Shown here piece after piece: positions 9,301 to 63,791 of a stretch of DNA of 64,000 nucleotides. The DNA comes from Pocillopora verrucosa (Eukaryota; Cnidaria; Anthozoa; Scleractinia; Pocilloporidae). The stretch is from positions 8,583,733-8,647,732 of the forward strand of contig NC_089320.1 of the NCBI RefSeq assembly GCF_036669915.1. Reading direction: 5' to 3'. The position numbers and the translations under genes were made by a program. Position 1 is the first letter of the stretch; each line of letters starts with the position of its first letter. Below the pieces are notes generated by a model. That model searched no databases. It worked only from the letters and a program-made list of their open reading frames with translations, and was not told the origin of the DNA.

Positions 9301-11483
9301 ATAATATTCATTACTCCTACACTATTCAAATTCTACATCAAGAAAATTATTATGAACCTTTGATTGACTAAGTTATCAGTTGAAATCTCTAGGTTAGTAG
9401 AGGTTGTATTTTTTTGTTTCGGCTTTATGGATCAGTGTATTGTCTTTGCCCTTCATAATAACTCAGCCATTTTTAACAGAAGTATTCTGGGCAGTTGTTA
9501 GTTGTGCCTTTGTTTCAATTAGACAGTTAATAATGTCTAATGAGAGTTCTGTTCTGAGATCATAAAATAATTGACTGTCAACTAAAAGTTAATAAATATG
9601 GATGATTGTTCACCACCAACTTGAAGGTGGTCACCTGTCAAGGTGAAAGGGCTAATGTTTGAAAATTCCATAATGCTCAATATTCACTCTCCTTCATCGT
9701 TCAAATTCTATATCCAGGCATTTACTGAGAACCTTTGATTGACTTAGTTACAAAATGAATGTTGAAATCACTAGGTTAGTAAAGGGTATATTAGTTTGCA
9801 ATAGCTGGGGGGATCAGTATGTTTCATAGTCTCAAATAGGCTAAAAATGTTGCTCCATAGGTCTTTAACCAATTACAGTTGTACCAATATTATATATGTT
9901 ATGATATTTCAACAATAATGATCATTTTCAACAGATAGAAGAAAATGAGGCTGTGATTGATTATGCTCTCAGCAAAAGACACGTAAAACTGGTATCCACT
10001 GGGTTGGACTTTGGCCAAGAAGGATTTTCAAAGTAAAATCAACTTGAAATTCTTTTGTCTTAAGTTATTGAAATTAATACTGTACCAGCAGGTATGGAGC
10101 TGTTTGATGTGACAATCTTGTTTTCTAGAACTAAGACTAAGATTTAAACAGAGAGATCATGGTTTGGGCTTGTCATTTGTCTCCCACAAAGTGGGTAGAC
10201 CAGAAAGAAACCCTGGGATAAATTTAGGGTGTAGACTCAGCACTTATCACACAGCTAATCACAGAACTGGTAACTTTGAAATGAAGTGACAAAACTGTGG
10301 CAATGGACTTTGCATGGTTCAAGTGAGTTCAAAGTAGAGTAGATCATATATGGCTTCACTCCATTTCATTTGACAAAAATTAATGGAATTTGGCAGTAAC
10401 ATTGTTTTCCAAAGTAATTAAATTTGCACAAATAAGGACCCCCTATTTTGTCAGCCAACTGTCAATCAATAGTCGGCCAACAGACAGCCGACAGATGGCA
10501 GACAGTTGGCCAACAGCTGACCGACAGTATCTTTTGGGAACTGTCCTTCACTTTTACTGGCGGATAAATGAAATCGAACCAATTTGGGCAAGTTTCACTA
10601 GCTAATGTAAAAAAGTGAGCAAAAGCTGTAGTAGCTATTGAGAGTACAGTGCAAGGTATCTTTTTAAAATGACTTTTCCCCTATTCATGTAGGTTAAAAA
10701 GAAGCAATAGATAGGTAAATGTTTATGATCATTTCAGTTTATGACCCACCAAAAGGTTACCAACAAGTTACCGACAGGTTGCCAACAGGTCACCAACTGT
10801 CAGCCAACTGTTGGCAAAAACTTTTGTCTGAAACATAACAAAAGCTGTTGGCGGACTGTTGGCCAACTGTCAGCCGATTACTGGCCAACTGTCGGCCAAT
10901 TACTGGCCAACTGTCGACTGATTACTGGCCAACTGTTGGCCGACAGACAGCCTACAGTCAGCTGATAGCTGGCCAACAATATTTTTCAAAACTGTCCTTC
11001 ACTTTTACCCAAAATTGTATTACACTCAGAAAACAATTTCTAAATCATAGAACCCCTTCACTGACCAGGGTTTTTAGTAACTGTTACGAAAAAAAAACAG
11101 AAAAAGAAAAAGAAAGAAAAAAACAGAAAAAGAAACAGCAAGTCAGTAGACCACAGTCACATCCTCTTGAGTTCCAGATTATTATTTTAGCAGTTCTTGT
11201 TAGCTTGCAGCTGGTGTCCCTGGCCACACAACTTTTGTTTCATCTTTACCTTAACCACAAATTTTCACTCAGTGACATTATACCAACCCAAGTATAACAA
11301 GTAGAAGTAGTTTGACTGATGCTTGGTTATTACAATTTCTCTCCTAGGTTCAGGGGAAAACATTTCCATCCTTCCTTAAAATTGAGCAAGAGATTTTTCC
11401 CTCACACTCACAACATGGATGGATTTTATGTTGCCAAGTTGAAAAAATATTCCAACAAAATTTCTCCTCAAGGTAAAAAGTGA
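374..11483 (+). CDS. NOP2: NOP2/NSUN1-type 25S/28S rRNA (cytosine-C5)-methyltransferase, N-terminus outside window
   Basis: Nucleolar enzyme that methylates a cytosine of large-subunit rRNA with AdoMet and is needed for 60S assembly (family knowledge). Exons by splice signal and phase: 374-538, 1395-1450, 1783-1868, 3288-3381, 4180-4285, 4754-4843, 5826-5913, 6585-6725, 6898-6987, 7451-7500, 7925-8014, 8748-8870, 9935-10032, 11348-11483. They join in frame into 470 visible residues. The first is a poly-Asp/Glu exon. Then come [10 protein letters not shown], the NOP2 helical region, [20 protein letters not shown], AdoMet motif [11 protein letters not shown], motif [10 protein letters not shown] with its Cys, motif VI YSTCS with the catalytic Cys, and [20 protein letters not shown]. 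The ORF closes with KISPQGKK and a stop, so the long Lys-rich tail of the human protein is absent unless a further exon exists. Bases 1-50 may hold part of an upstream exon. Confidence 0.95.
614..1109. mobile_element. TIR element (MITE-like) built of CTGTCGGCCGACAG palindromes
   Basis: Inverted ends of about 65 bp begin with TGGTAATTGTGAAG at 614 and mirror 1109. Both run through GAGCTCCCCAAAAAACC into clusters of the palindrome CTGTCGGCCGACAG and variants (640-835 and 1010-1080). The element is flanked by CATGTA at 608-613 and 1110-1115, a possible 6-bp target duplication. It lies in a NOP2 intron and has no transposase ORF; open frames across it are by-products of the repeats. The superfamily is not recognised. 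Confidence 0.8.
2003..2370 (+). repeat. 51-bp minisatellite, about 7 copies
   Basis: The core CAAAACCACATTGTCATTAC starts at 2010, 2060, 2111, 2162, 2218, 2269 and 2320. The step is therefore about 51 bp, with one 56-bp unit that gained a TTTTC. Each core is followed by TTGGTAAACTTTTCTTTTC. It lies in the NOP2 intron between 1869 and 3287. Copies are nearly identical, suggesting recent expansion. Confidence 0.92.
2390..2935 (+). repeat. Tandem tRNA-derived SINE, about 2 units of 260 bp
   Basis: Two tRNA-like heads at about 2554-2626 and 2817-2889 carry A box GTGGCTCAGTGG and B box GGTTCAATTCC (GGTTCTATTCC in the second). In the first, the T-arm is perfect and the acceptor stem GAGTCTC/GGGACTC closes with one G-U pair, but the anticodon loop has about 8 bases. 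Each head is followed by CAGAATTTTTTCTTTGTCCC, and the next unit starts at a shared GACAAGACAAAAA (2398, 2658, about 2919). This is a head-to-tail Pol III retroposon in a NOP2 intron, not a working tRNA gene. Confidence 0.8.
10440..11010. repeat. Two clusters of CTGTCGGCC(A/G)ACAG-type palindromic repeats
   Basis: Blocks at 10440-10530 and 10745-10975 hold many diverged copies of CTGT(C/T)GGCC(A/G)ACAG, the motif that forms the element at 614-1109. Each block ends in the same string, ACTGTCCTTCACTTTTAC (10540 and 10990), so the two are direct copies of one element end. They lie in the last NOP2 intron. No coding potential is seen. Confidence 0.7.
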
Positions 11484-29966: not shown

Positions 29967-30960
29967 TTATTCGTAGGCAAACTCCTCAGATTCACCAGAT
30001 TCTAAGGATTCTCCAGATTCAGCTGATTCCCCGGACTCGCCAGATTCCCCGGACTCGCCTGACTCCCCGGACTCACCAGATTCCCCGGACTCACCAGATT
30101 CCCCGGATTCTGAGGTCTCCCCGGATTCCCCGGACTCCTCGGATTCAGTAGATTCCCCAGATTCGCCCGATTCTCCGAATTCAGCGGATTCCCCGGACTC
30201 GCCGGATTCAGCAGATTCCCCGGACTCGCCAGATTCCCCGGATTCAGCAGATTCTCCTGATTCGGCTTGTGTCTCTGTCTCCTCAGAATTAAACAAGCTT
30301 CTTCGCCTTTTTTCGTGGCCTTTATCAGACTTCCCAGAAGCTCCTGATTCTGCAAGATTTCCTGATTCATCAAATTCACCAGAATTAATCGAGTCTGTAC
30401 CTGGATTGATAGATAACGAAATAATTCACTTTTAAGTATTGTAAATGCTTCATAACAAGACAAATTCATATAAAAATGCATTTTGCTGATCAGTGTAAAC
30501 AAACTCCTCTCAAGGAAGGGACGGGAGACAGTTTTTTAAATACACTGTCGACGAAATAACAAATACATAGCGTTGCGCAACTCGGAAATGTCATTATCTT
30601 GTCACTTTAAATAGCAAACGATGACAAGACATTTGATCCTTGCATGATAACTTAGAGAAATTAACTGCAGACATTTCAATTCAGCAAAGATGGAACCCGG
30701 AAGTGGACTTGCCTCCACCGGCGCGCTTATCAGTTATTGGTCTCTGATGGATCAGGGACTTTTCAAGCAATAGGTACAAGAACAAATTGTAGAAGGATAT
30801 CATTTCTGATGCCCAATATAATTCTCTTGTTACAATAACGTGTTGTTTTTCAATAATTTTAGTTCGTCTGAACTATTTACTTACCATGTGGTCTTGACGA
30901 ACAGCATTCTAGAGATAAGATCAATACACAACAAACAAGTAAAACATTTGAGATCTTCAT
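29967..30960 (-). CDS. Secreted Glu-Ser-Gly repeat protein with furin-type site (uncharacterised)
   Basis: Two exons on the minus strand: 30885-30960 and 29967-30400, joined in phase 1 across a GT-AG intron, giving 169 residues. Exon 1 encodes a clear signal peptide: MKISNVLLVCCVLILSLECC followed by SSRPH. Residues 27-55 are a Ser/Gly/Asp/Glu propeptide-like stretch. EKRRRS at 55-60 fits a proprotein-convertase site. From about residue 71 to 160 the chain is almost only ESG triplets with Ala, Thr and Leu variants, ending in EEFAYE. It has no cysteines after the signal region, no membrane anchor and no known domain. Each Ser fits S-x-E (the secretory-pathway FAM20C-type kinase site) and S-G with acidic flanks (glycosaminoglycan attachment). 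Function unknown; a matrix, mucus or mineral-associated role is inference. Repeat DNA is GC-richer than the surroundings. Confidence 0.72.
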
Positions 30961-31004: not shown

Positions 31005-31014
31005 GTTATATAAA
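31005..31014 (-). promoter_or_regulatory. TATA box of ESG-repeat gene
   Basis: On the minus strand TTTATATAAC lies about 45-55 bases upstream of the start codon at 30960. This would give a start site near 30983 and a short 5' UTR. It supports 30960-30958 as the real initiator. Confidence 0.5.
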
Positions 31015-48914: not shown

Positions 48915-51900
48915 ATGGCGAAGTCTGACACTTCCAAGAAGGTAAGAAAAGCATCTTTTCTCTTCTTTCCACATTTTCGGGGTTAGTCTGGTGTATAAAC
49001 GTGGTTTAGAGAGGCAATCTTTTATGTTAAATCGAAATCAGAGTAAACTACAAGTCAACCAACATGAAAGTGAGTTTCTCAAATCTTCCATGGGCTGTTT
49101 AAAAGCGCATGGAGCTATTTAAAAAATGTGGCATTTCCATTGAGGTTAAGTTATGAAGTGAGCAAAAGGAAATCAAGGGCTTAGCGTCGCTGCAAAAAAT
49201 TGTTTCCCGGCAGCTGAGCACGTGTTTAAATTGCGCAACACAAACGTCGTCAAACTTCTTTTAACTCTTTAAAATTTTGGCTTTTATCTCTGGGAGGAAG
49301 AGTGTTGATCATTTTTAAGCAACGGAATGTCGAGGTTGAATTTTGAGCGGAACGACAAGGCTCAAAACCTTTTTGGCCACATACTTTCAGCCGTTGAAAC
49401 TTCAAGGATCAGTGTTCATCTAATCAGTTGGCGATTATTCCGGCGAGGGGAAAAACAAGAGTAACTTTCTTTTCATTGCGTAGTCTCTCTGTTCAACTTC
49501 TGTTTACCATCCAAAGCATGTTTACTCTCAAGCATAGAAAACTGATCCTCGGTGCACGTGTAAATTCGTCTTCAAAGGATTACAGAGAGGCAGAAAAAGA
49601 GTTTGCAATTGGAACTCGTATTTCATTAACAACCAGAAGTTGAAAGTGGTAGTTAAACCTCTGAAGAAGCGCTGCAAGATTCGAATGATTTGGTGGCAGT
49701 TAGAGAAAACATTTTAGTAACTAAATTTACGACACAAGCCACCCAGGTAGTGACGTGTGTTCGGTGGTCATGTAGGTATGAAGTCAGAGATAACATTTAC
49801 CGTGGTCACAAGAGTTTTAAGCCTTGTCATATCATACGAATCTCCAAAAACCAATGCCAGCCATTCTGCTTTTTCCAAAGACAATTGCTGTGGTTAGCAG
49901 TTTTTTCTATCATGCACAATTGCACTAAGTGTCTTTTTCCTTCTTTTAGTGACCAACATTTGTTTCAAGCAATCACTTGATGATTTTTGGTCACCACATG
50001 GCAATTTTCTAGTAAAATAAACTTGGTAGCCCTGCTTAAGTTAATTTTAAAAAGCTGAGGGTTGAAGGGAAGGTCCCTGATCACAACAAAATGCTGTCTA
50101 CATTTAGTTGTCAGAACAACTCTTCTCTTTGTTAAAAGGCCAATGCTTGAAACACATGCTTTTCAAAATTAATTTCAGAGAGTTGTATAAAACTGGTAAT
50201 GTCCAGTTGTAGTTTATCATAGTGTTTCAGGAATCTAAAACACAACACAAAGGTTTATTTTAAAAAATGATAACTTTGGTTACTGATAACTGACCATGAG
50301 AGTGAGTGGAACCCTTATGAGTAGCACATACTTGGGATATATGGCCATGTACAGGAGTTTGTTGTTGTGGCATAATACATAAGGTGAACAACCATGAATG
50401 TAAAATTTAAAAAAAGCAGCCAATATGATAGCACACAAAAATTGATATTTTTATTCAGGAAAAGGCAGTAGATGTATCTAAAAAGCTTGACAAAGAGAAA
50501 AAGTCCAAGGTTAAGGAACAGAAACCTCATGCAATTAATGGAACAAAGAAAGTCAAGGCTAAAATCCAGAAAAAGGCTGGTAAAGGAAAACCAGAGAAGC
50601 CTCCTCCAGTTCAGCCCCCTTCAGACTCGGATGTAAGTGTAGAAATACAGGTTCCCTTTGTTTGTTTTGTTTTGTCTTTTTGTAGTATGGTATGTCATGA
50701 TAAGTAGGAAACATTGGAAGATGAGATAATGGAACCATCAAATGAATTGAAGTATTACTATAGATACACTAAGATTTGTTAATTACTTGATGCGTGTTAT
50801 ATTTGAAGATGTTGGAAATAAAATCATAGGTGAACTTGGAATATTGACTGACCCCCTAGCTGGCCTCTCAGGCTTAACATTATCTGAATTAGGGGCATGT
50901 GGTCAGTGAATAGTCAATCAGATATCTGGTGGTCAGTTTAAAGAAGTGTTGATCATTCAGAAATCACTGTCTTCACAACAGCGAAGTGACCTACAGAGTT
51001 ATCTGGAGTGACCTGGAATGTCATTCAATCCTTAAGATACCTTAGTGTTCACCCTATTTTGATCATACAGAAGAAACCTTTCAGGAATTTTACCTTTTTC
51101 ACCTAAATACCCTTTATTATTGGATAATTTACTTCTTTGAGAGAACAAGGTCTTGTGTCTTTTTAGCATTGCTATACAGTACAAGATTTTGCCTCTACAC
51201 ATATTTGATTTTACCTCTACACATATTTGTAGAAATGTTTTCATGGGTCGCTTTCTGCTTTCTTCATATTTTTGCCTTTTAACGAATATCTTTTATCCTC
51301 CACAGGACTCAAGTTCAGATGAGGATGAAGCTGGGTCAAGGTACTCATCTATGGAGTATGATTGGTTGGCAGTTCAAACCTTGAAAATCATTACATGTTA
51401 AAGCTTTTTTGACCCTTCTAATAGTAACTCATCGTAAAAATATTTAAAAGTTCCTTTTTGTAAACAGCTACCTTCTAAAATTGAGAAACATTCAAATTAA
51501 GTTGGTCTTTTGCATCCTTACTTCAATGTTTTGAAATATTTAACCTGCATGATACTGATTCATTTAGATAACAAAAGTAGCCAGGACAGAACTGAAACAA
51601 TTACACAGCTAATAAAACAATTACTGGTATGACAATTCACTCGTGGGTATTTTCTGTCCAAATCTATTTGAAAACACCTTCTTGCTGGGCACAAACAAGC
51701 CAGTTTACTTTGACTCAAAATTGAAGTTCCAAGGTTGTTTCTTCCACTGGTGCACTTAAATTTAAAATGGCTAGGATCCTGATAACCTAATCTTCCTCCT
51801 TATCTTTCTGAAATATAATACCGTAAGCAGTTTTTACTAATAATTACATCATCTATTAATAGTAGATTTTTTTCATTCTATTTTCAGAAAACAAGCTATC

Positions 51901-54900
51901 TTTAAAGATCAAAAGAAGGAAAAACTTGGTGCACCACAAGTGCGGGGAATTGAAAACACACAAGGAGACACATCAAATGATGAGTCCTCCTCAAGTGATA
52001 GTGAAACAGCCATGAAGGTAACACCACAGCAGACAAAAGCACAGTCTTCAGACTCTTCTGATTCTTCAGATGACAACAAGAAAACAAAAATTACCACAAA
52101 GAAGAAGCTTAAAAAGAAAACTGAGCAAAAGAAGTCAAATGGGAAACCAGCTGGAGGAGTGGCTGTTGAACCACCTGCTGATTCAAGCTCTGATTCATCA
52201 GATGAAGAAGAAAAGAAACCTCTCAAATCACAACAAGTAGTGAAGAAACCTCCTCCTAAGAGGGCATCATCAGAATCCAGCTCAGATTCCTCTGATGAAA
52301 AGGAAGGAAAACAAAAAGCAGGGACAGAGAATGGAATTAAAAAAAAAATGACGCAGCCTAAAGCAGCCTCTTCTGAATCCAGTTCTGACTCTTCTGATGA
52401 AGAAGAGGAAAAAACAAAAGCAGGCCCAGAGATAAAGAATAAAAAGAATGCAGTCAAAGCTAAAGCAGCTTGCTCTGAATCCAGCTCAGATTCTTCCGAT
52501 GAAGAAGAGGAAAAAACAAAAGCAGTCCCAGAGGTTAAGAACAAAAAGAATGAAGTCAAACCTACAGCAGCATCCTCTGAATCCAGCTCTGATTCTTCTG
52601 ATGGAGAAGAGGAAAAATCAAAAGCAGCTATAGATACTAAGAATAAAAAGAAAGAAGTGAATTCTAAGGCAGTTTCCTCAGAGTCCAGCTCTGATTCTTC
52701 TGATGATGAAGAGGAAAAATCAAAAGTAGTTGCACAGATGAACAATAAAAAAAAAGAAGTGAAAACCAAGAAAGCTTCTTCTGACTCCAGCTCAGATTCA
52801 TCAGTTGAAGAAGAAGAAAAATCAAAAGGAGTCACAGAGATAAAAAAGAAAAAGAAAGAGGTGATAACCAAGAAAGCTTCCTCTGACTCCAGCTCAGATT
52901 CTTCAGATGATGAAGAGAAAGGACCTAAAGTAACAAAAACTCAGAAAGGAAATAATAGTAATGAAGTGAAACCTCAAGAAACATCTTCTGATTCTAGCTC
53001 TGATTCTTCTGACGAAGAAGGTAGACAGAAAAGAAATAAAAATGGAACTAAAAGCTCCAGTAATAGGGCCTCAAAGGAAACCAATGAGAATTTGAAGTCT
53101 GAATCAGATTCAAGGAGTGAGAATGAAGATGAACCAGCTGCTGAGGATACAACCCAGGCCAAGAAACGAAAGAACAATTTTCATGAGGAACCAGTCAAGG
53201 CCAAGAAATCCAAGAAGCTGAAGGTATAAAGTAGAAACATTTGTCTTAAGTTTAAAACCCAGGGGTTTTTGACTTTGCTGGTTTTTAAATGACCTTCCTT
53301 TGACTTTTTGTTGGACATTTATTGTCAGTTGACCAACTGCTGTTGCTATTTACATACCCTATATAGGAAATTAACTATTTACTTTATTGATTCAATTTTG
53401 AATCAACCTCTTTCACCTGTATTATTGTTGCAACAACATTCACTTCTATACGAAGGTTCATATTTTTAATTGATCCTTCAGCCAGTCAATAGTAACTCTC
53501 TTGGTACATCACAGTAGATCAATGCTTCTTTAAGTCAGTTGAGTCATTAACTTGGAAAACTAAGAGCATTGTTTCACAAGATGACAAAACAGAGGGACCA
53601 CATCAGTGTTTTATCTTCTCCAGGAGCCTTTGATAGAAAATGAGGAAGGATATAAACAAAAAAGAAAGGCAGACACTTATGGCGAAGATTCTGGAGGCAA
53701 GAAATTTAAACAAGATGATGATGTTACTGAGAAAAGTAAGTTAAGTTTGTGTAATGAAGTACCATAAACGTCCATGTATAAGCCGCATCCATAGAAAAAA
53801 AAGCAAAAATTAATCACTTTAAAGAACCCTTGGAGGGCAAGATTCGCCGATAAACACTTGAAGACACAAACAGCTCCTTTAGGGGCAACCACTCAATGAA
53901 AAAGTCAATGAACTACAGCAACACGCTCTCAGTTTCTTTTATTTTTATTTCTTAGCATCTTAAGAAGTTTTATGAATATTAATTAGGTTTTTGAGAACTC
54001 CAAACACAGATGTATTCATGGATAAGCCACACCCTTGATTTTTGGCTTCAATTTTGTGAAAAAAAAAGTGCAGCTTATACACAGACATATATGGTAAATG
54101 ATTGTTCTATGATACTGAATTTTTTTTAAACAGTTCAGTTCTGATGATCAGTTGTCTCAAATATTTATGCTTTGACAGAATTACTTAGTATTTGGCCAAG
54201 ACCAAAGTGTCCATCTATTTGTTAAGGTGTTTTGTTAACCAAACCTCTTCATTTCTCAAGTATACTCTGGATACCCTAACTTTGAAGTGGTAACATGATT
54301 TTGCTCTTAGGAGATCCTCGCAGCTAAGAACACTACTGAAACAAGTAGTTGTAAATAGGACCTGAAAAAATTCAGGCCCGTACGTACCCCAGTACAAATA
54401 TGTGAAATTTTCATATATCTAAAATCTTCATTCACTTGGATGTTTATTTGTACCCAATTCATTGACCAGCTCCCAGTTGGCTTGTTAGCTCAATTGGTAG
54501 AGCGCTGCACCGGTATCGCAGAGGTCATGGGTTCAAATCCCGTACAGGCCTGAATTTTTTCATGTCCTATTTACAACTACTTGTTTCAGTAGTGTTCTTA
54601 GCTGCGAGGATCTCCTAATTTCATCTTTCCACCGCAGTGCAAATATGTGAAATTTTCATATATCTAAAATCTTCATTCACTTGGATGTTTATTTGTACCC
54701 AATTCATTGACCAGCTCCCAGTTGGCTTGTTAGCTCAATTGGTAGAGCGCTGCACCGGTATCGCAGAGGTCATGGGTTCAAATCCCATACGGGCTTGAAT
54801 TTTTTAAGGTCCTATTTACAACTACTCGTTTCAGTAGTGTTCTTAGCTGCGAGGATCTCCTAATTTCATCTTTCCACCGCAGTGCAAATATGTGAAATTT

Positions 54901-57326
54901 TCATATATCTAAAATCTTCATGATTTTGCTCTCTAACATCACAGCCAAGATATTATCATTATTATTATTATTATTATTATTACTATTATTATCATTATTA
55001 CAATTATTATTTAACAATTTAGGCAAGCTATTTAATTATTGTTGTTGCATTTTGATGCCAAAGAGAATATATAAAATGTTTCAGTTTCACTGTATGTGGG
55101 AAATTTGTCTTTTGACACCACTGAGGAAAGCCTGCGGGCTCTGTTTGAGGACAATGGTGCAACCATAGAAGAAGTGAGAATCATAACAAGAGATGGATTG
55201 TCCAGAGGGTATAGTTATGTTCCATTTTCATACATTTTTGTTTATGTACAATATACAATTTACACCTATACATGTAGAGGACCAAGAAAAGCTGGAATTG
55301 TATTTGTGCTCCATGTTATTATAGTGTAACTTTGTATATTAATTCATGTATTGTGTTGATTGTACAGCAATGTCTTGCCACAAAAAAAAAAAAAAAAACT
55401 TACAATGTAAAGAAATTTAGTGAGCACCTTTGTACATGCACTCCCAACTTGACCTGAATGTGAAATTAACATCCTGTTTACCAATAAGAGGAATTACAAT
55501 ATTTTAAAATATTTTTCTTTTGCAAGAGCTTTCTATAAGCAAGGATTTTTTTAACTAGATCATTCTGCAAGTATTCAGTGAACTTGTAATTGTTGAGTTA
55601 GGTTATGTACTGAAGAACTACTCGCATTCAAGTTTGCTATGTTTGAATTTTAGATTTGGCTATGTCGATTTTTCAAGTCATGAAGAAAGTCAAAAGGGAT
55701 TGGAACTTGATGGTTCAGAACTTGATGGCAGAGCGTTAAGAGTCAATTTAGCAGAGCAAAGACGCAACCAAAATGAGAGAGGACAAGGAAACTCGAGAGG
55801 CAGAGGTGGTTCTAACAGAGGCCGTGGTAAAAGTACTCCATCAACCACCTTGATATGCCTTGGTCTATCGTACAACACAGATAATGACTCATTAAGGGGA
55901 GCTTTCCCAGATAGTGTCAGCGCACGAGTCATCACTGATAGGGACACAGGCAATCCAAGGGGGTAAGAATCTCTACCTGCCTTAAGTGTTTGTTTTATCC
56001 TTCAGTATCTTGGCTTTGTTTACTGAGTGATGTAGTGAAGGGAAGCTGTCAAACCGAGACCATGCTCTACTGATTGAGTGTTAGCGAAGTCAATGCTGCA
56101 AAATAAGGAATGAAATACACTTGTACATACAAGTAGCCAAGCACAAGAAAATGATTTCTCAACAGATGGCAATGCTGTCTTATTTTTGTATAAGCATCTA
56201 GAAAATACTTTGCACGGTCCTCTATTTTAGTTGTTTAGAATCATAATGTTGGCTTTTTGTTTATTACTTACGATTGCAAATGTGCCTTTTTGTGAGATGT
56301 TTCAATTAATATTTTCTTGGTTACTGAATATTTAAAACTTGTTTGGGTCATCAATCCAAGTGGAAAAACCTTGCTCTGTTACTCACAGTACTAACAACTG
56401 GGTTAGTGAGGTATGAAATCCCCAGAATATGTTGTTTTGATAAATACATGCAAATGTCTCCTACACTTAAAATTTTAATGTGTAGAATTACTTCTCTTGT
56501 TCTGAACCTCATAAAAACCTTTAAACAAGGCATTACTGAGTACTGGAAAGTAACTTAGCACTTATTATATCCTTTCCATTAAATGTCTTAGTTGTAACTG
56601 GCGATTAAACACTCTTCATGTGACTTGTGCTAATCCCTTTGTCCCATGGCCTCTTTTCAGTTTTGGTTATGTGGAGTTTAACAGTATTGAGGATGCACAG
56701 TCTGCAATATCCACAATGGAAGGACAAGAATTGGATGGGCGTTTCCTTCGACTTGATTTTGCAGAACCAAGAGGCTCCACACCTGGGAGTGGAGGTGGTA
56801 GAGGTGGCGGTAGAGGTGGTAGAGGAGGAGGAAGAGGTGGCTTTGGAGGCAGAGGAGGGGGAAGAGGTGAGTTTATTTGTAATTTTCGTGTCTTTTATTG
56901 TACTTTAAGGTAGCTAAAAATTTGATTAAGTTTTTTTTTTTTCATTTTGGCACCTGTTAGGTAAGGTACTTTATGTGGTCACCAAAGAGTGACTTTGTAA
57001 GTAGAGAGCCAGTTTGGTTATGTAGCACACCTGTGGTGATTACTGACCATGTAATACAACATACGAGTACACAGAGAAGTTTAAATTTGTCACAAAGTTG
57101 CTATTTTCTGCTGTCAAAACTCCAAGGATCACTTTCTCTGAAAATTGGTTATATCCATGCTTATATGACTCGTGTGCCATTACGCATGCCACAGAACTCA
57201 GTCTGTTCTCTAAGCAGTTCTTATATTTTTGTTTCAGGGCGGGGAAGAGGAGGATCTCCCTTCAGTGCCTCACGTAAAGGAAATATTCAGGAATACAAAG
57301 GGACAAAGATCTCATTTGATGAATAG
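48915..57326 (+). CDS. NCL: Nucleolin-like protein: Ser/Glu/Lys repeats, two RRMs, RGG tail
   Basis: Nine exons: 48915-48941, 50459-50632, 51306-51340, 51888-53223, 53624-53735, 55085-55208, 55654-55962, 56661-56866, 57238-57326. They join in frame into 803 residues. The start MAKSDTSKK precedes a Lys-rich stretch. The 1.3-kb exon 4 encodes about ten acidic blocks of the SSDSSDEEEEK type separated by Lys/Ala-rich linkers, rich in CK2-type sites. RRM1 runs from SLYVGNLSF to RNP1 GFGYVDF, RRM2 from TLICLGLSY to GFGYVEF. An RG-rich linker joins them and an RGG region follows. The C-terminus is GTKISFDE. Nucleolin binds pre-rRNA and supports rDNA transcription and processing (family knowledge). 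Both RRMs are split by an intron at the same codon and phase in RNP1. The acidic blocks resemble NOLC1/Nopp140 more than the poly-acid tracts of vertebrate nucleolin. Confidence 0.9.
54294..54932 (+). repeat. SINE complex between 14-bp direct repeats: inverted arm plus two tandem tRNA-derived units
   Basis: tRNA-like heads at 54479-54550 and 54724-54795 have A box TAGCTCAATTGG and B box GGTTCAAATCC. In the first copy the acceptor stem GGCTTGT/ACAGGCC pairs with one wobble. The anticodon-loop position reads GGT, but base 33 is C and the stem has a mismatch. Units of about 245 bp repeat head to tail. Bases 54308-54384 are an inverted copy of the unit's 3' part (54541-54618). The direct repeat CATGATTTTGCTCT occurs at 54294-54307 and 54919-54932. 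It lies in the intron before the nucleolin RRM1 exon. Confidence 0.78.
54952..55015 (+). repeat. (ATT)n microsatellite
   Basis: A run of ATT with a few C substitutions, next to the SINE complex, in a nucleolin intron. Confidence 0.8.
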
Positions 57327-58639
57327 GTGGCTGATACATTTGGCCAATTTTACCATATACCATAATGTGTAAAAAGTTAGAGGCTATGGTTTACAGTCTT
57401 TCTTCGCGCATTCCATCTCTGTGTTAGAAACTTCATCAATCCATTAGAGGCGCAATACTTATCAGCAGAGTGTGAATTTCTTAGTGAATCAAAGAAAATG
57501 TTCTATATTTCGCGAAAACATATTAACAACACCTGGCACAAACCCAAAGACAGATAGAATGCGTAGTAATTATTTATATCAGTGAGAACTTAATAATTAC
57601 ACTCGTCATTTTAATACCGTGAGATTTTATTGTTTTTAAATTCTCTGTCATATTTGCAATTGGTAGGTAATCTAAACGATTTGTGAAAGAAAGCGTTGCG
57701 TTTTTTTCTTGTTAATATCAGAAAATTGAGCGGCAGACGTTTACCGCCACTCGTGAACAATGCCCAAAAAGTCTCCTCGTTTCCAGTTGTGGAAAGTGCA
57801 AATAGTAAATGCAATCGTCTTTGGTTTAATTTTTTTGATCCCTTAGTTTTATTCACTTTCCAAACGTTCCAATGAGAGGTTTTCATAGTTAGTAGGTGGA
57901 GTGGAGATATCTGTATTAGAAGTGTATCCCTTTCAACACTACTGAAAGCGTCTAAAGAGTATTGAAATAGGCCTGATATTACTGACTGCTGTGATTTGTA
58001 ACACAATAGATAATTCAATAAAGTATGATTTACTCTGAACAGTGTAGAATTCATTGTAAGGTAGTATTTTAATATAGTGTCTGCATTTTTACCATCAAGA
58101 CGTGTTATCTAGATCCTCTGAACAAAGGCCCTCAATAAGCTGGTCATGGTTGTGTTAACGATGTTTTACTCTAAAATTGACGTAATTTTTTTTGTATGGG
58201 TTTTATGTGTGAACCTCTCTTGGTAGAAGATCTGGTCTGCTGTCAGAAACGTATTTCTTAGACGAATTAGTTGATAGTTCTCATCTTCGTCAACAATCAT
58301 GCAGTCTACCTTCTTAAATTCAAGAATAAGACTGGCTGTACGTCCTTGAGTGATGTCTGGAGCTTTAGCGCTAATGTTTGTAGCTTGGCTATCAGAGCAA
58401 AACAAAGGTTTCTCGAGTTCCCATGAACTTTGAGCTACATACAGGTAACATTGAACGGGGGAGGAGAGTCTTGTCAATGATTAAAAGTGTGGAAGTTACA
58501 GGAGTATCATTCTACACATAAATAGGACTCTTTAAACATGATATTTCAACTAATTTTGACACTGAATATTGCAGCTCCATCGGTAAAACAGTCTACCTAT
58601 GCCTTTGGTTTCAACCCGGCGATATTCGGAAGACATCGT
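57327..58639. other. Nucleolin 3' flank with unassigned minus-strand ORFs
   Basis: ORFs of 147 codons (57611-58054) and 103 codons (58166-58477) lie on the minus strand. The second contains ASLILEFKKVDCMIVDEDEN. I recognise neither. They could be exons of an unknown gene or chance frames. Confidence 0.35.
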
Positions 58640-60632
58640 CCCCGACAGTGATCTAGCGGCTAAAAAGCCATGCCGTTTGTGGCTGAAGAGGTGGGATATG
58701 TGATCCCGTAGACCCGCCAGAACGTAGCGCAGGAGAACTTTGGAGATGACAGGGAGAGGGGAGATAGGGCGATAATTCTCCACAAGGTCTCTTTTTTCCT
58801 TTCTTGAAAATGGGTACTATATTCGCGAGTTTCCACTCTTCTGAAAAAATGCCGAGCCGCAAAGATTTGTTGAATAACATGGTCAGAGACGGAAACCGCT
58901 GACCAGATCGCACCGTCCCTGACCATGTTATTCAACAAATCTTTGCGGCTCGGCATTTTTCCAGAACACTAGAAACTCGCGAATATAGTGCCCATTTTCA
59001 AGAAAGGAAAAAGAGACCTTTTGGAGAATCATCTCCCTATCTCCCCTCTCCCTGTCATCTCCAAAGTTCTCCTGCGCTGCGTCCTGGCGGGTCTACGGGA
59101 TCACATATCCCACCTCTTCAGCCGCGAACAGCATGGCTTTTTAGCCGGTAGATCTTGTGTGACCCAGCTTACCAGTGTCTTGCATTACATTGGCGGTCAA
59201 CTCGACGCCGGTAACAAATAGACAATATATATCTTGACATGAATAAGGCATTCGACAAAGTGATCACACCAAGCTACTTGGAAGGTTGTACCAATACGGT
59301 ATTACTGGCAAACTCTACGACTGGTTCCGTTCATACTTACAGGGACGCAAGCAACAAGTTACAGTTCTCGGAGCTATTTCCCGAGAATTGCCGGTTACTT
59401 CCAGGGTTCCACAAGGGTCCCTACTAGGGACGATACAGTTTCTGCTGTTTGTGGACGATCTATCAAACGCTGTTAAGACTTCGGGAGTTGCCTGTTACGC
59501 CGATGATACTAAGATTTTCAAGAGCATCGATTCCATCACAGACTGTAACGCCTTGCAATCCGACCTTAACAATCTTGTCAGTTGGTTAGAATCATCCGGG
59601 CTCATATTTAATCAGTCCAAGTGTAAATACCAGTGCATCTCCCGCAAAAAATCACTTGTACAACCTACCTATACTATCAACGAAACGCCTTTGGAAGCTT
59701 GCGACACAGAGAAAGACCTTGGGGTGTGGGTATCAAGCAATCTCACCTCAGACAAACAAGTATCTGAACAGTGTGCGAAAGCCAAAACTCCTCGGGTTTG
59801 TGCGCCGACTTTCTCGGTACATCCAAAGCGCCCAAACGCGTCGTACACTGTACCTTTCTATCGTCCGGTGCCATCTCGGCTATGCAACCCAAGTATGGTC
59901 GCCACAGTCCATTGGCCTACTAAAGCGAGTTGAAAACATACAGCGCCGTACAACAAAACTAATTTTGAAGCTCCCCTTCCGTTGCGATGTCACCGATGAG
60001 ACCCGCCTCCAACTAACAAATCTGTTGCCCATCTCATACTGACATGAATTTTTGGATATAGTCTTTTTCTACAAAGCTGTTAATAACTTAGTTTTCATAG
60101 ATAGTGAAGCTTTACCTGTAAGCAGGCAATTTACAAGATCTACTAGGTCATCGAGCAGCATTGCTATTACTTATATTCCTAAGCGAAGTAGAACTGTTAC
60201 ATATCGACGTTTATTTTTCATACGCGTGTGCCGCACATGGAATGTTCTTCCCACTGAGCTACGCACAAATCACATATTTCTAGCCTCTTTTAAAAGTTTA
60301 TTACTTCAATATTACAAAAAGGCTCTGAACCTGTACAACGTTGACGACATTAGAACCTGGAGAACAATCTGTCCTAGGTGCAACACAGTGAGGTCTCTCC
60401 TATGCCCACCAACATGCTGCTTCTAGCAATTTGGACTTCCTTTTTATTTCCTCTGAGTTTTCTGCTTACATATTAGTAGATTTAGTTATTAAGTATTTTT
60501 TATATAAATAATTAACGAGGGTTCCGCTGTAATTGGCTAGGTTGTAGTGGTCTCCCTGCCTAATAATTTTTGTATTCTTTTTTACAAATTGTATTCTAGT
60601 TAGGCGAAGCTAAATAAATAAATAAATAAAAA
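58640..60632 (+). mobile_element. Decayed LINE with foldback 5' end
   Basis: From 58915 the plus strand encodes a non-LTR RT in pieces: SLTMLFNKSLRLGIF, PISPLPVISKVLL, NKAFDKV, QYGITGKLYDWFRSYLQGRK, VPQGS, the catalytic YADD within ACYADDTKIF, DLGVWVSSNLT, the thumb and the C-terminal region to about 60426. It ends with a (TAAA/AATA) tail at 60608-60632. At least four frame changes or stops make it inactive. Bases 58650-58897 are an inverted copy of 58915-59160, joined by about 17 bp. The 3' simple-repeat tail is typical of CR1/L2-like families; the clade is not certain. Confidence 0.85.
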
Positions 60633-61197
60633 AGATAAGAATAGGGCGATCGTATCACCTTAGAGTAAACCTCCTGTCTTTTGTACTTTCGCTGAGAAGA
60701 GGATTGGTAAAGAACTTCGATGCGATCAATGTTAGGGAGATTCTTATCGGTCAGTCATATAATTCTCAAGCAATTGCAAATCATCGGTCTCGGGTGATGG
60801 GAGAAAGCAGGAAGTTTGTTGTTCCTTGATGTTTAATTTCAGAATTCAATCAGTTGCCTCAAAAAGGTAGATTTTTATTTGTTTTTTGTTGTTGTTGTTT
60901 GTTTGTTTGTTTTTTCTCCATACTATTGCAAGAATGTAGTTTGAAGTAGATGTTAGTGAATTTGTAATCTTTTTAAGGCCAGCTAGTGTAGCTAGACCTG
61001 GATCTGAAATGACACAGATTTGCCCCAATTCCCCTGGGAACTTGTTCCGAGCAAAGCCTTCGAAGAAAGAACTTGTTTCAAATTCAGTCCCAAACAGGTC
61101 CTTGTGTGAAGAAGATAGATGGAAATCTTAGTCTCGCAGGTTCTTACAAGTTAATTTCTTTTATTTGTGAGTGATTTCTATCTCCCAGTAATTTTTA
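60633..61197. other. Unassigned sequence between two LINE insertions
   Basis: No coding potential is seen. It contains a GTTTGTTTGTTTG simple repeat near 60896-60912. The end near 61198 is one copy of the 42-bp direct repeat that flanks the next element. Confidence 0.4.
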
Positions 61198-62714
61198 AAA
61201 ATTCATGTAAACTTTCAGAGGACTGGATGGCTTAGGAAAGTACATACATACATACATACATGCATACATACATACATGCATACATGCATACATACATACA
61301 TACATACATACATACATACATACATACATACATACATACATACATACATACATACATACATACATACATACATACATACGTTTATTGCAACTCCCAAGCT
61401 GGGTTTTTCAGTTACAAAGCCTACATTAAAATTATTGTAATATTATAGTAACATTGTATTGGCCTAAAAATATATATAAGTGAAAACTAAGGCTAGTGCA
61501 ATAGAAATACAAAAGGCCAGTACACGTTAAAAACACTAGTGAACTAAAACAAAAATTAGACAAGAATAGAAGATTGAAATGATTCATCTGTGCGTGACAT
61601 TTCCACTAAGGAGCACATTCAGTAGGGTGAGCCTAAAGGCGTTTACATTCTCAGCTGCTTTTAAGTCATTTGGGAGGTTATTCCACAATTTGCATCCGCG
61701 ATACGTGAATGCACGTTGCCCAGAGGACAGACAGCATCGTGGAATGTGGAGCAGATTACATGATCTTACCCTACTATGAATACGAGATCGTGGGACAAAC
61801 ATGTCAGCCAGATATTCAGGAACTAAATTATTTACACATTTAAATACCATTACAGCATCGTTAAAATAAAGTCTCTCCTTAACAGTGAGCCAATTAAGAG
61901 ATTTTATGCCTTGGGAGACGTGGTCAAATTTCTTAAAACCTAATACAATACGGGCAGCAAAGTTCTGCACTAGCTGAAGCTTCTTTATATTTCTTTGAGA
62001 TGTGTTGGCCCATGCAGTTAAATAATAATACATTGTACTAAAAACAAAAGCGTTCATCAAAAGTAAAAGGGTTTTCCTGTCCAAGAGGTGTTTAATCCTG
62101 CTAATCTGTACTAGTTCAAAAATACAGTTAGAAGTAGCTTTAACAACATGATCGTTATATGTTAAGGACTGGTCGATGTAGACTCCAAGGTCCTTTGCCA
62201 GAGGGACTGGTGTTATTTCCTTTCCCGAGAGTGAAATTGACGTTGGAGGCAATTTCCTCAGTAGTTGAGGAACACCAACCAGTAAGATTCTAGTTTTAGC
62301 TGGGTTTATTAAAAGGGAATTCTGACAGCACCATGGGCAAATTTCTCTCAAATCTTCGTTCAGATAACCAAATACGCGAGCGATGTCAGTTGAGCGAAAG
62401 GATAGGTATAGTTTACAGTCATCGACGTAGCACACAGACTTGCAGTGGGCTGGAACGGACAAGAGATCATTTACATAGATGGTAAACAACACAGGCCCCA
62501 AGATAGAACCCTGAGCAACTCCGTATTTAAGAGGGAGCGGGTCTGAGATAGCATCCCCAATGCGCACTCGCTGGCTACGACCAGACAGGTAATTATGAAA
62601 CCACTCCAAGCTCGAAGAGGCAACACCTATGCTCTGTAACTTCTGAAGGAGAAAACCATGTCTGATACTATCAAAATTCATGTAAATTTTCAGAGGACTG
62701 AATGGCCTAGGAAA
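61198..62714 (-). mobile_element. 5'-truncated LINE with (CATA)n tail and 42-bp target-site duplication
   Basis: Direct repeats 61198-61239 and 62673-62714 (starting AAAATTCATGTAAA) match at 39 of 42 bases and bound an insert of about 1.43 kb. Inside, the minus strand encodes RT from about FDSIRHGFLLQKLQSIGV onward: AQGSILGPVLF, catalytic CYVDDCKLYL, AKDLGVYIDQSLTYNDHV, and a C-terminal NNLPNDLKAAENVNAFRL. The 3' end is a (TATG)n tail at 61241-61380. Only the C-terminal half of RT remains, so it is 5'-truncated, but the frame is intact. The three differences between the repeats suggest an old insertion. Confidence 0.85.
61241..61380 (+). repeat. (CATA)n microsatellite
   Basis: About 35 tandem CATA units with a few CATG variants near the left end. 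On the minus strand it is the 3' tail of the LINE. Open frames reading MYVCMYVC or HTYIHTYI are artefacts of it. Confidence 0.95.
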
Positions 62715-62828
62715 CATAGGAGGAGTTGGAGATATATCGTCGTCAGCAGCTCTTCCCGTCAAGCACGGGTCAAATGCATTCAAAACTATTCTTAATTCAG
62801 CCTTCAAGCTAAGAATAGGGGCAGCCAT
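61584..62828 (-). CDS. 414-codon chimeric ORF: host start fused in frame to LINE reverse transcriptase
   Basis: The first ~52 residues (MAAPILSLKAELRIVLNAFD, then DDDISPTPPMFP) lie upstream of or inside the flanking direct repeat and are not RT-like. From residue ~53 on the ORF is LINE RT with YVDD at 134-137 and an AQGS motif at 105-108. The initiator has good context (TTTCAAAATGGC). The ORF is uninterrupted for 1.24 kb despite the diverged target duplication. The original host segment continues on the far side of the insert as SPLKVYMNF. Whether the fused product is made is unknown. Confidence 0.5.
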   Translation of the reverse strand: MAAPILSLKAELRIVLNAFDPCLTGRAADDDISPTPPMFPRPFSPLKIYMNFDSIRHGFLLQKLQSIGVASSSLEWFHNYLSGRSQRVRIGDAISDPLPLKYGVAQGSILGPVLFTIYVNDLLSVPAHCKSVCYVDDCKLYLSFRSTDIARVFGYLNEDLREICPWCCQNSLLINPAKTRILLVGVPQLLRKLPPTSISLSGKEITPVPLAKDLGVYIDQSLTYNDHVVKATSNCIFELVQISRIKHLLDRKTLLLLMNAFVFSTMYYYLTAWANTSQRNIKKLQLVQNFAARIVLGFKKFDHVSQGIKSLNWLTVKERLYFNDAVMVFKCVNNLVPEYLADMFVPRSRIHSRVRSCNLLHIPRCCLSSGQRAFTYRGCKLWNNLPNDLKAAENVNAFRLTLLNVLLSGNVTHR

Positions 62829-63791
62829 TTTGAAACTTACTGCCTCAGGACTATGATTAATTAGAGGAAATTTGGTTTGATCAGCTGAGTTGGTAATGTA
62901 AATTGGCCACTGTTAAGAGTTTCTAAAGCTGACGTTGCGAGCGTAGCCCTTCGCCGCTGCTCTAACGAAGGACTAACGCTTGAAACTAACTTAAGCTTCA
63001 GAAAGTATTTACGTTGGCCAATTTACACTATAAACTTAGTTGGTAAAAACAAAATTATCTTGTAATACCTCCAACCGACGCAGCGCCATAGTTTCTTTAG
63101 AAACTTACCTCCTTTTCGATAACTAAGGGTTGGTCAAACCGGTATATCACATATTTTTGAGCCAATAAGAGTTTAATTGATCTGACTTGTTTTATGACTT
63201 TTCTGCATGAATTTCCGCGCTAGAATTCCCCGTTGATAAAGCTTTGCATAACCACGAATCATTATGAAATGACTAAGCGCAGTTGTATGTATTGACCGTA
63301 TATTTCTCAAGTTGAGGGTTCTCTTGATCTAGAGCTGTTGCAAGAAGGGTTACGAAACACAAATGGAATGCGTACAAGACGATGCTAAAAGGTTTTGTGG
63401 GTAAGGATACATACCAGTGGTTTGGCCAATGATGAGGGCAATCTTTGAAGATAGGTATACATATCCCCTCGTTTTGATACGTAAAAGCAACAAGAACTTC
63501 CTTTGACAATGGGTTTGTCTGATAGGCCCTTTAGGTAATAACCTAAACATAGTTCTTTCAAGAAATATGTTTCTGACTTCTTTGTTAAGCAGAACTTTTT
63601 ATTTAAGTATTTAATATGTCAAGGCCACCATGACTGCACAGAACAGTGCTTTATTGCATCCATAAGGCTACATAGCAATTTGTACTAAATATGATTTTCC
63701 ATTCGGAAAAGACACTAGTATGATACACATACACTAGTTTGTGTACTGGATTAGTTCGTTTGCCAATGATTTACAACTAATAAACCACCAT
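62829..63791. other. Non-coding stretch, no gene recognised
   Basis: Short minus-strand ORFs at 63273-63550 show no family features. The part next to 62828 could be the promoter of the ORF that starts there. The right part is presumably the 3' UTR of the acidic gene. Confidence 0.4.

Follow-up and report, generated by a model that had tools for sequence, protein, structure and literature searches.

A predicted gene for a secreted, acidic Glu-Ser-Gly triplet protein in Pocillopora verrucosa and its putative family of three loci

The window, i.e. the whole stretch of 64,000 nucleotides of Pocillopora verrucosa DNA that was analysed, contains a small predicted gene for a secreted, strongly acidic protein that consists mostly of Glu-Ser-Gly (ESG) triplets. 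As gene predictions made from the DNA sequence, this gene and a family of three loci to which it belongs are well supported. The protein may be a disordered polyanion that owes its charge to Glu, can be cleaved and belongs to a secretory granule or matrix; this is the explanation we favour, and we hold it at a little short of an even chance. The features of the gene and its product are as follows.

31006 to 31012, minus strand: TATATAA box, starting at 31012, 52 nt 5' of the ATG.
30885 to 30960, minus strand: exon 1 (76 nt), predicted signal peptide MKISNVLLVCCVLILSLECCSSRPH(G), with the consensus phase-1 donor G/GTAAGT.
30401 to 30884, minus strand: intron of 484 nt, GT-AG, phase 1.
29967 to 30400, minus strand: exon 2, including a TAA stop that shares bases with an AATAAA.
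30300 to 30311, minus strand: KRRR basic site, aa 56-59, a candidate proprotein-convertase cleavage site (coordinates by hand).
29976 to 30263, minus strand: 32 ESG-type triplets, aa 72-167 (coordinates by hand).

The sequence-only reading of this stretch had proposed a signal peptide exon spliced in phase to an acidic repeat exon with a KRRR cleavage site, preceded by a TATA box at the expected distance. All of these elements were recovered: the junctions at 30885 and 30400 are exact, the two exons join in phase on the minus strand into an open frame of 169 aa, and both the KRRR site and the TATATAA box are in place. The product starts with a signal-like segment and continues with a 29-aa stretch that carries two Ser-Gly (SG) sites outside the repeat, the KRRR site, a short linker and the 32 triplets. 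It contains 25.4% Glu, 24.9% Ser and 16.6% Gly, and its net charge is -38. The signal peptide was called by a hydrophobicity score and not by a trained predictor. When both strands of the 64 kb were scanned for signal exons, loose thresholds returned 22 candidates, many of them nested, and exon 1 of the gene was the only one to pass strict thresholds, which were chosen after its scores had been seen.

The triplets are regular to different degrees at their three positions. Glu is kept in 32/32, Ser in 29/32 and Gly in 22/32, so the earlier statement that every triplet presents S-x-E and Ser-Gly was slightly too strong. The third residue is small in 29 of the 32 triplets (22 Gly, 5 Ala, 1 Thr and 1 Ser), and neither Pro nor a basic residue occurs within the repeat. 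Both motifs are far more frequent than composition predicts. In 1000 shuffled sequences with this composition, S-x-E averages 10.7 with a maximum of 20, and it is found here at 32 of the 42 serines; SG is counted 25 times against a mean of 7.0 and a maximum of 15 in the shuffles.

Since the array is a tandem repeat, we considered whether there is no protein gene at all and the repeat is simply open by chance on both strands. The antisense frame at 29977-30432 on the plus strand, mainly (Asp-Ser-Pro)n, is indeed open over 152 codons, but by our reasoning this openness follows from composition, because a stop can appear there only where the sense strand has a Tyr, His or Gln codon. Against the chance explanation, the best-scoring signal exon in the 64 kb splices in phase into the repeat, and two paralogous models repeat the same architecture. 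We therefore regard the absence of a gene as extremely improbable. The variation among the triplets is mostly at third codon positions, a bias that suggests coding constraint. It was dropped as a test of strand, as the antisense (DSP)n frame has the same third positions, and the strand of the gene accordingly rests on splicing and on the paralogues.

The paralogues were obtained from DNA and protein searches of the animal's own genome, covering 353 Mb in 52 contigs. At least 91 matches were returned at E values up to 0.1, and all counts from this search are lower bounds. Ten of these matches belong to three loci: one is the window gene, one its antisense, seven fall in an ESG cluster on contig C1 and one is a DSG/ESG exon on contig C3. 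Two gene models were built around the latter two, so at least three loci make up the predicted family, including what is apparently a long modular precursor; seeing this takes the whole genome and lay beyond the sequence-only reading. Among 18 regions sampled from the other 81 matches, 17 gave long frames of collagen-like, minisatellite or other low-complexity type without ESG runs and were rejected as relatives, and the remaining one yielded no frame that passed the filter; the frames judged are those of the region and may differ from the matching frame.

The C1 model comprises 17 exons from 35991304 down to 35979139 and 1315 aa with no internal stop, where the choice of exons was guided by phase, some donors are non-consensus and the last exons were assigned by inference. 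In this model 15 of the 16 introns are in phase 1. The predicted protein opens with a signal peptide and carries ESG blocks; it also has 11 exact matches to [KR]R[SN]xIP and two looser basic sites, KRDTIS and KRSLPS, and its net charge is -260. Its longest unbroken triplet run is 20, compared with 9 in the window protein, and where one triplet comes directly after an acidic SG triplet, as happens 92 times, its first position is acidic in 85, the second is Ser in 76 and the third is Gly in 66. The C3 model is much shorter, with three exons and 113 aa, and combines a signal peptide, a basic stretch and DSG/ESG repeats; its net charge is -8, its basic sites are KK only, and its stop overlaps an AATAAA, like that of the window gene. 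In each of the three models the first exon is hydrophobic and signal-like, and a phase-1 intron comes next. We argue the homology of the three loci from this architecture, because low complexity bars a firm sequence test. Upstream of the paralogues, inspection by eye of 150 nt in one case and 115 nt in the other showed no box resembling TATATAA.

The assigned strand is supported by the signal exon, by an asymmetry of exon chains at the C1 locus and by synonymous codons. In the 6-kb core of that locus, the longest phase-1 exon chain is 2397 nt on the minus strand and 588 nt on the plus strand; the corresponding values are 1740 and 537 nt for phase 0, and 858 and 0 nt for phase 2. As a control, no chain exceeded 972 nt in the 18 strand-blocks taken from the window, including two that contain part of the window gene. 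The KR[SN]xIP sites of C1 differ from each other by first-position synonymous codons, including AGA/CGA and AGT/TCG.

The statement that no known family comes to mind agrees with our searches of Pfam and NCBIfam, which returned only compositional matches of the collagen type and, for the C3 protein, a weak match to FAM209. Neither a chitin-binding nor a lectin domain was detected by Pfam. Among animal sequences, relatives were sought in PDB and in the own genome. A text search of the titles and abstracts of open papers found no (ESG)n protein, but such a search says little. The charged C-terminal region of the C1 protein has no Pfam match, and its best PDB match is not significant (E 0.062); this region matched only itself in the own genome, and against viral contigs it gave 26 pattern matches with 0 confirmed relatives.

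The collagen-type matches raise the idea that (Gly-Glu-Ser)n forms a collagen-like triple helix free of Pro. The Pfam Collagen score is 35.1 bits for a cut-off of 27.2, and when the first 427 aa of the C1 protein are compared with PDB, the top matches are collagen chains (best E 2e-12). The NCBIfam matches are to bacterial collagen-like adhesins and lie far under their cut-offs (51.1 against 400), and merozoite surface antigens also appear among the PDB matches, which we read as compositional. We read the Pfam Collagen match as compositional as well. A triple helix needs invariant Gly, but Gly is the most replaced position here (10/32), unbroken triplet runs reach 9 and 20 in the window and C1 proteins, respectively, and the window repeat has neither Pro nor a basic residue. 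This explanation is hardly credible.

The family can also be set beside the acidic proteins of the coral skeleton. SAPs and SAARPs are likewise secreted and acidic, and they are described in PMC4890752 as high in Asp. In contrast, Asp is outside the eight commonest residues of the window protein, and it makes up 8.6% of the C1 protein and 10.6% of the C3 protein. By description, then, the window protein is set apart as a Glu-Ser-Gly protein with a basic cleavage site.

Another comparison is suggested by the basic sites that recur along the C1 protein. Cnidarian multi-copy neuropeptide precursors also combine a signal peptide with repeated dibasic sites, and the family might by analogy be a multi-copy precursor from which active signalling or defensive peptides are excised. 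The 11 exact [KR]R[SN]xIP sites, together with KRDTIS and KRSLPS, provide what such a precursor would show, i.e. repeated dibasic sites with a conserved motif after them. However, none of the 13 sites is immediately preceded by Gly, and neither is KRRR in the window protein, so the C1 sites carry no amidation signal. The candidate pieces are long, acidic and of low complexity, and the other two members do not follow the scheme, with one basic cluster in the window protein and only KK in the C3 protein. We consider a precursor of active peptides highly unlikely.

Vertebrate SIBLINGs and caseins are substrates of the secretory kinase Fam20C and, like the window protein, are secreted acidic proteins dense in S-x-E. 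The sequence-only reading had pointed to phosphorylation by a kinase of this type. The S-x-E count well above the shuffles agrees with a Golgi-phosphorylated S-x-E phosphoprotein, and so does the pattern of the triplets, where Glu and Ser are kept and the residue between them varies, as phosphorylation would allow. The window protein differs from these substrates in its Gly-rich triplets, and it differs also in the genome around it, where no Fam20C-type kinase was detected. A profile search with PF06702 gave, even at E values up to 10, five matches that all lie within 3.0 kb (C4:25072864-25075827) and belong to one Fam20 gene; the search ran without a Fam20C positive control and would miss a gene in an assembly gap.

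The exon pieces of this Fam20 gene score 314 bits to PDB entry 5xom, a glycosaminoglycan xylosylkinase, and 208 bits to human FAM20C; entry 5xoo, which has the same sequence as 5xom, is hydra Fam20B. At the three sites named in PMC5865150 as separating Fam20C from Fam20B, the gene is of the Fam20B type in 3/3. It has GTPYAGFD where Fam20C has D/N-F/H-F-Y-F-S/T-D, CYYC, in which two residues separate the paired cysteines, and Lys in LDNAK. By a hand count on the alignment it keeps 8 of the 10 residues of the hydra Fam20B sugar pocket, with Glu149 replaced by Ala and Tyr151 by Phe. The same paper describes the single Fam20 of sponge and hydra as a xylose kinase and reports no phosphorylation of OPN, casein or enamelin by these enzymes (PMC5865150), and a review dates the Fam20 protein kinase from nematodes onward (PMC7948968). 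Because the only Fam20 gene found is of the Fam20B type, the S-x-E proposal is left without its kinase here, unless a different kinase acts, as it may. The phosphoprotein explanation thus appears quite unlikely.

A xylose kinase of the Fam20B type is relevant to another modification. In this case the protein would be a proteoglycan core, like serglycin, which is a chondroitin proteoglycan core, or like the nematode CPGs, and xylosyltransferase would start chondroitin on many Ser-Gly sites to give a hydrated bottle-brush. Besides the kinase on C4, the genome has two exons at C8:17097109-17098491 that match PF12529, the xylosyltransferase C-terminal domain. The window, C1 and C3 proteins have 25, 113 and 13 SG sites, respectively, and every one of these is near an acidic residue; in the window protein all 25 have one at most four positions before Ser or after Gly. 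Nematode CPG and serglycin-type cores are similarly secreted and of low complexity, with many Ser-Gly near acidic residues (CPGs: PMC11632948 and PMC8418075). CSPG cores are described as little conserved across species (PMC11632948), nematocysts are described with chondroitin (PMC10014300), and the addition of chondroitin to SULF2 is reported to need an acidic cluster (PMC13405426).

The part of the sequence-only reading that placed Ser-Gly near acidic residues, as for glycosaminoglycan attachment, therefore stands, but attachment along the triplets is weakened by the residue directly before Ser. In a peptide library, human XT1 is described as needing a small residue at +1 and tolerating an uncharged one at -1 (PMC5992326). 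The small third residue of 29/32 triplets suits this human specificity, but an acid occupies -1 at 23/25 SG sites in the window protein, 92/113 in C1 and 13/13 in C3. The nematode motif [ED][GA]SG (PMC8418075), which reflects worm specificity, is found at 0/25, 1/113 and 0/13 sites, respectively, and the family also departs from the nematode and serglycin-type cores in having acid directly before Ser at most sites. Gly is moreover the least conserved triplet position, and in SULF2 added SG repeats are reported to cut occupancy (PMC13405426). An uncharged residue at -1 is present at 2/25 SG sites of the window protein and at 21 of the C1 protein. Human sites of highly sulfated chondroitin are described as favouring acid at -4 and -3 (PMC10424144), and an uncharged -1 with an acid at -4 to -2 is present at two SG sites in the window protein and 18 in the C1 protein. 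On balance we judge a proteoglycan core to be somewhat unlikely, though it keeps appreciable weight.

For the favoured Glu polyanion, the following course is proposed. The predicted signal peptide would route the protein into the secretory pathway, where a proprotein convertase may cut after KRRR; the acidic fragment so released would be 110 residues long, roughly a third of them Glu. The charge of Glu itself would then act, binding water and cations (Ca2+, Na+ or basic cargo) in a granule, in mucus or in the extracellular matrix, with Ser-Gly as a flexible, soluble spacer. Any glycosaminoglycan chains would be placed at those few SG sites where the residue preceding Ser is uncharged. The C1 paralogue would be a long version in which phase-1 exons supply acidic blocks, most of them ending in [KR]R[SN]xIP, and exon duplication would multiply the units; this anatomy is taken from the gene model and the processing is putative.

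Counted for the polyanion are Glu as the most constrained triplet position, the likewise most often kept acidic first position in the C1 triplets, the net charges of the three proteins, the 17 exons of the C1 model joined without an internal stop, the exon chains and synonymous codons of the C1 locus, the signal exon and phase-1 intron shared by three loci, and the Fam20C-type kinase that was not found. The bare-glutamate reading partly rests on this last point, from the search without a positive control. Counted against it, the SG retained in 22/32 triplets exceeds what a pure polyanion needs, a variable x between fixed S and E also fits S-x-E phosphorylation, and the C3 protein as a whole has little net negative charge. 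A broader proposal is a class of secreted precursors in which each phase-1 exon combines an acidic ESG block with a KR-[SN]-x-I-P cut site, so that duplication adds polyanion units and an animal lacking Fam20C would build a strongly charged polymer of matrix or granule from bare glutamate and not from phosphoserine or glycosaminoglycan. We consider this generalization doubtful.

Acidic repeat proteins are central to ideas on coral skeletons, mucus and stinging capsules, and their low complexity hinders relating them by sequence. In the present case three loci are connected by the gene architecture they have in common, and the set of enzymes found speaks against S-x-E phosphorylation of the usual kind. 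An (ESG)n protein shown to bear chondroitin would become a candidate for the core protein of cnidarian chondroitin, whereas one that bears no modification would be a polyanion of glutamate only.

Several other features were observed in the window and the genome. Tandem arrays at 54386-54921 and 2393-2943 have SINE-like units of about 245-261 bp with tRNA-like sequences, namely tRNA-Thr GGT at 54479 and 54724, and odd anticodons at 2557 and 2818. Two further arrays, 10 kb apart at 648-736 and 10748-10977, consist of partly palindromic 11- and 22-bp units such as GTCGGCCGACA. In the plus-strand region 51844-57326, an acidic frame rich in Ser, for which Pfam gave no match, precedes an RRM frame and frames rich in Gly and Arg; we take the region to be perhaps a nucleolin-type gene. 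At 58553-62912 several reverse-transcriptase-like frames occur on both strands, and PF00078 was matched in both of the two frames scanned. Outside the window, GFP-family exons are abundant, in keeping with an anthozoan genome, and one GFP-family piece is nearest to amFP486, a protein from an anthozoan. All 74 listed matches to these exons lie in two clusters, C1:670362-884433 and C1:28361248-28791301, many with stops inside the matched stretch.
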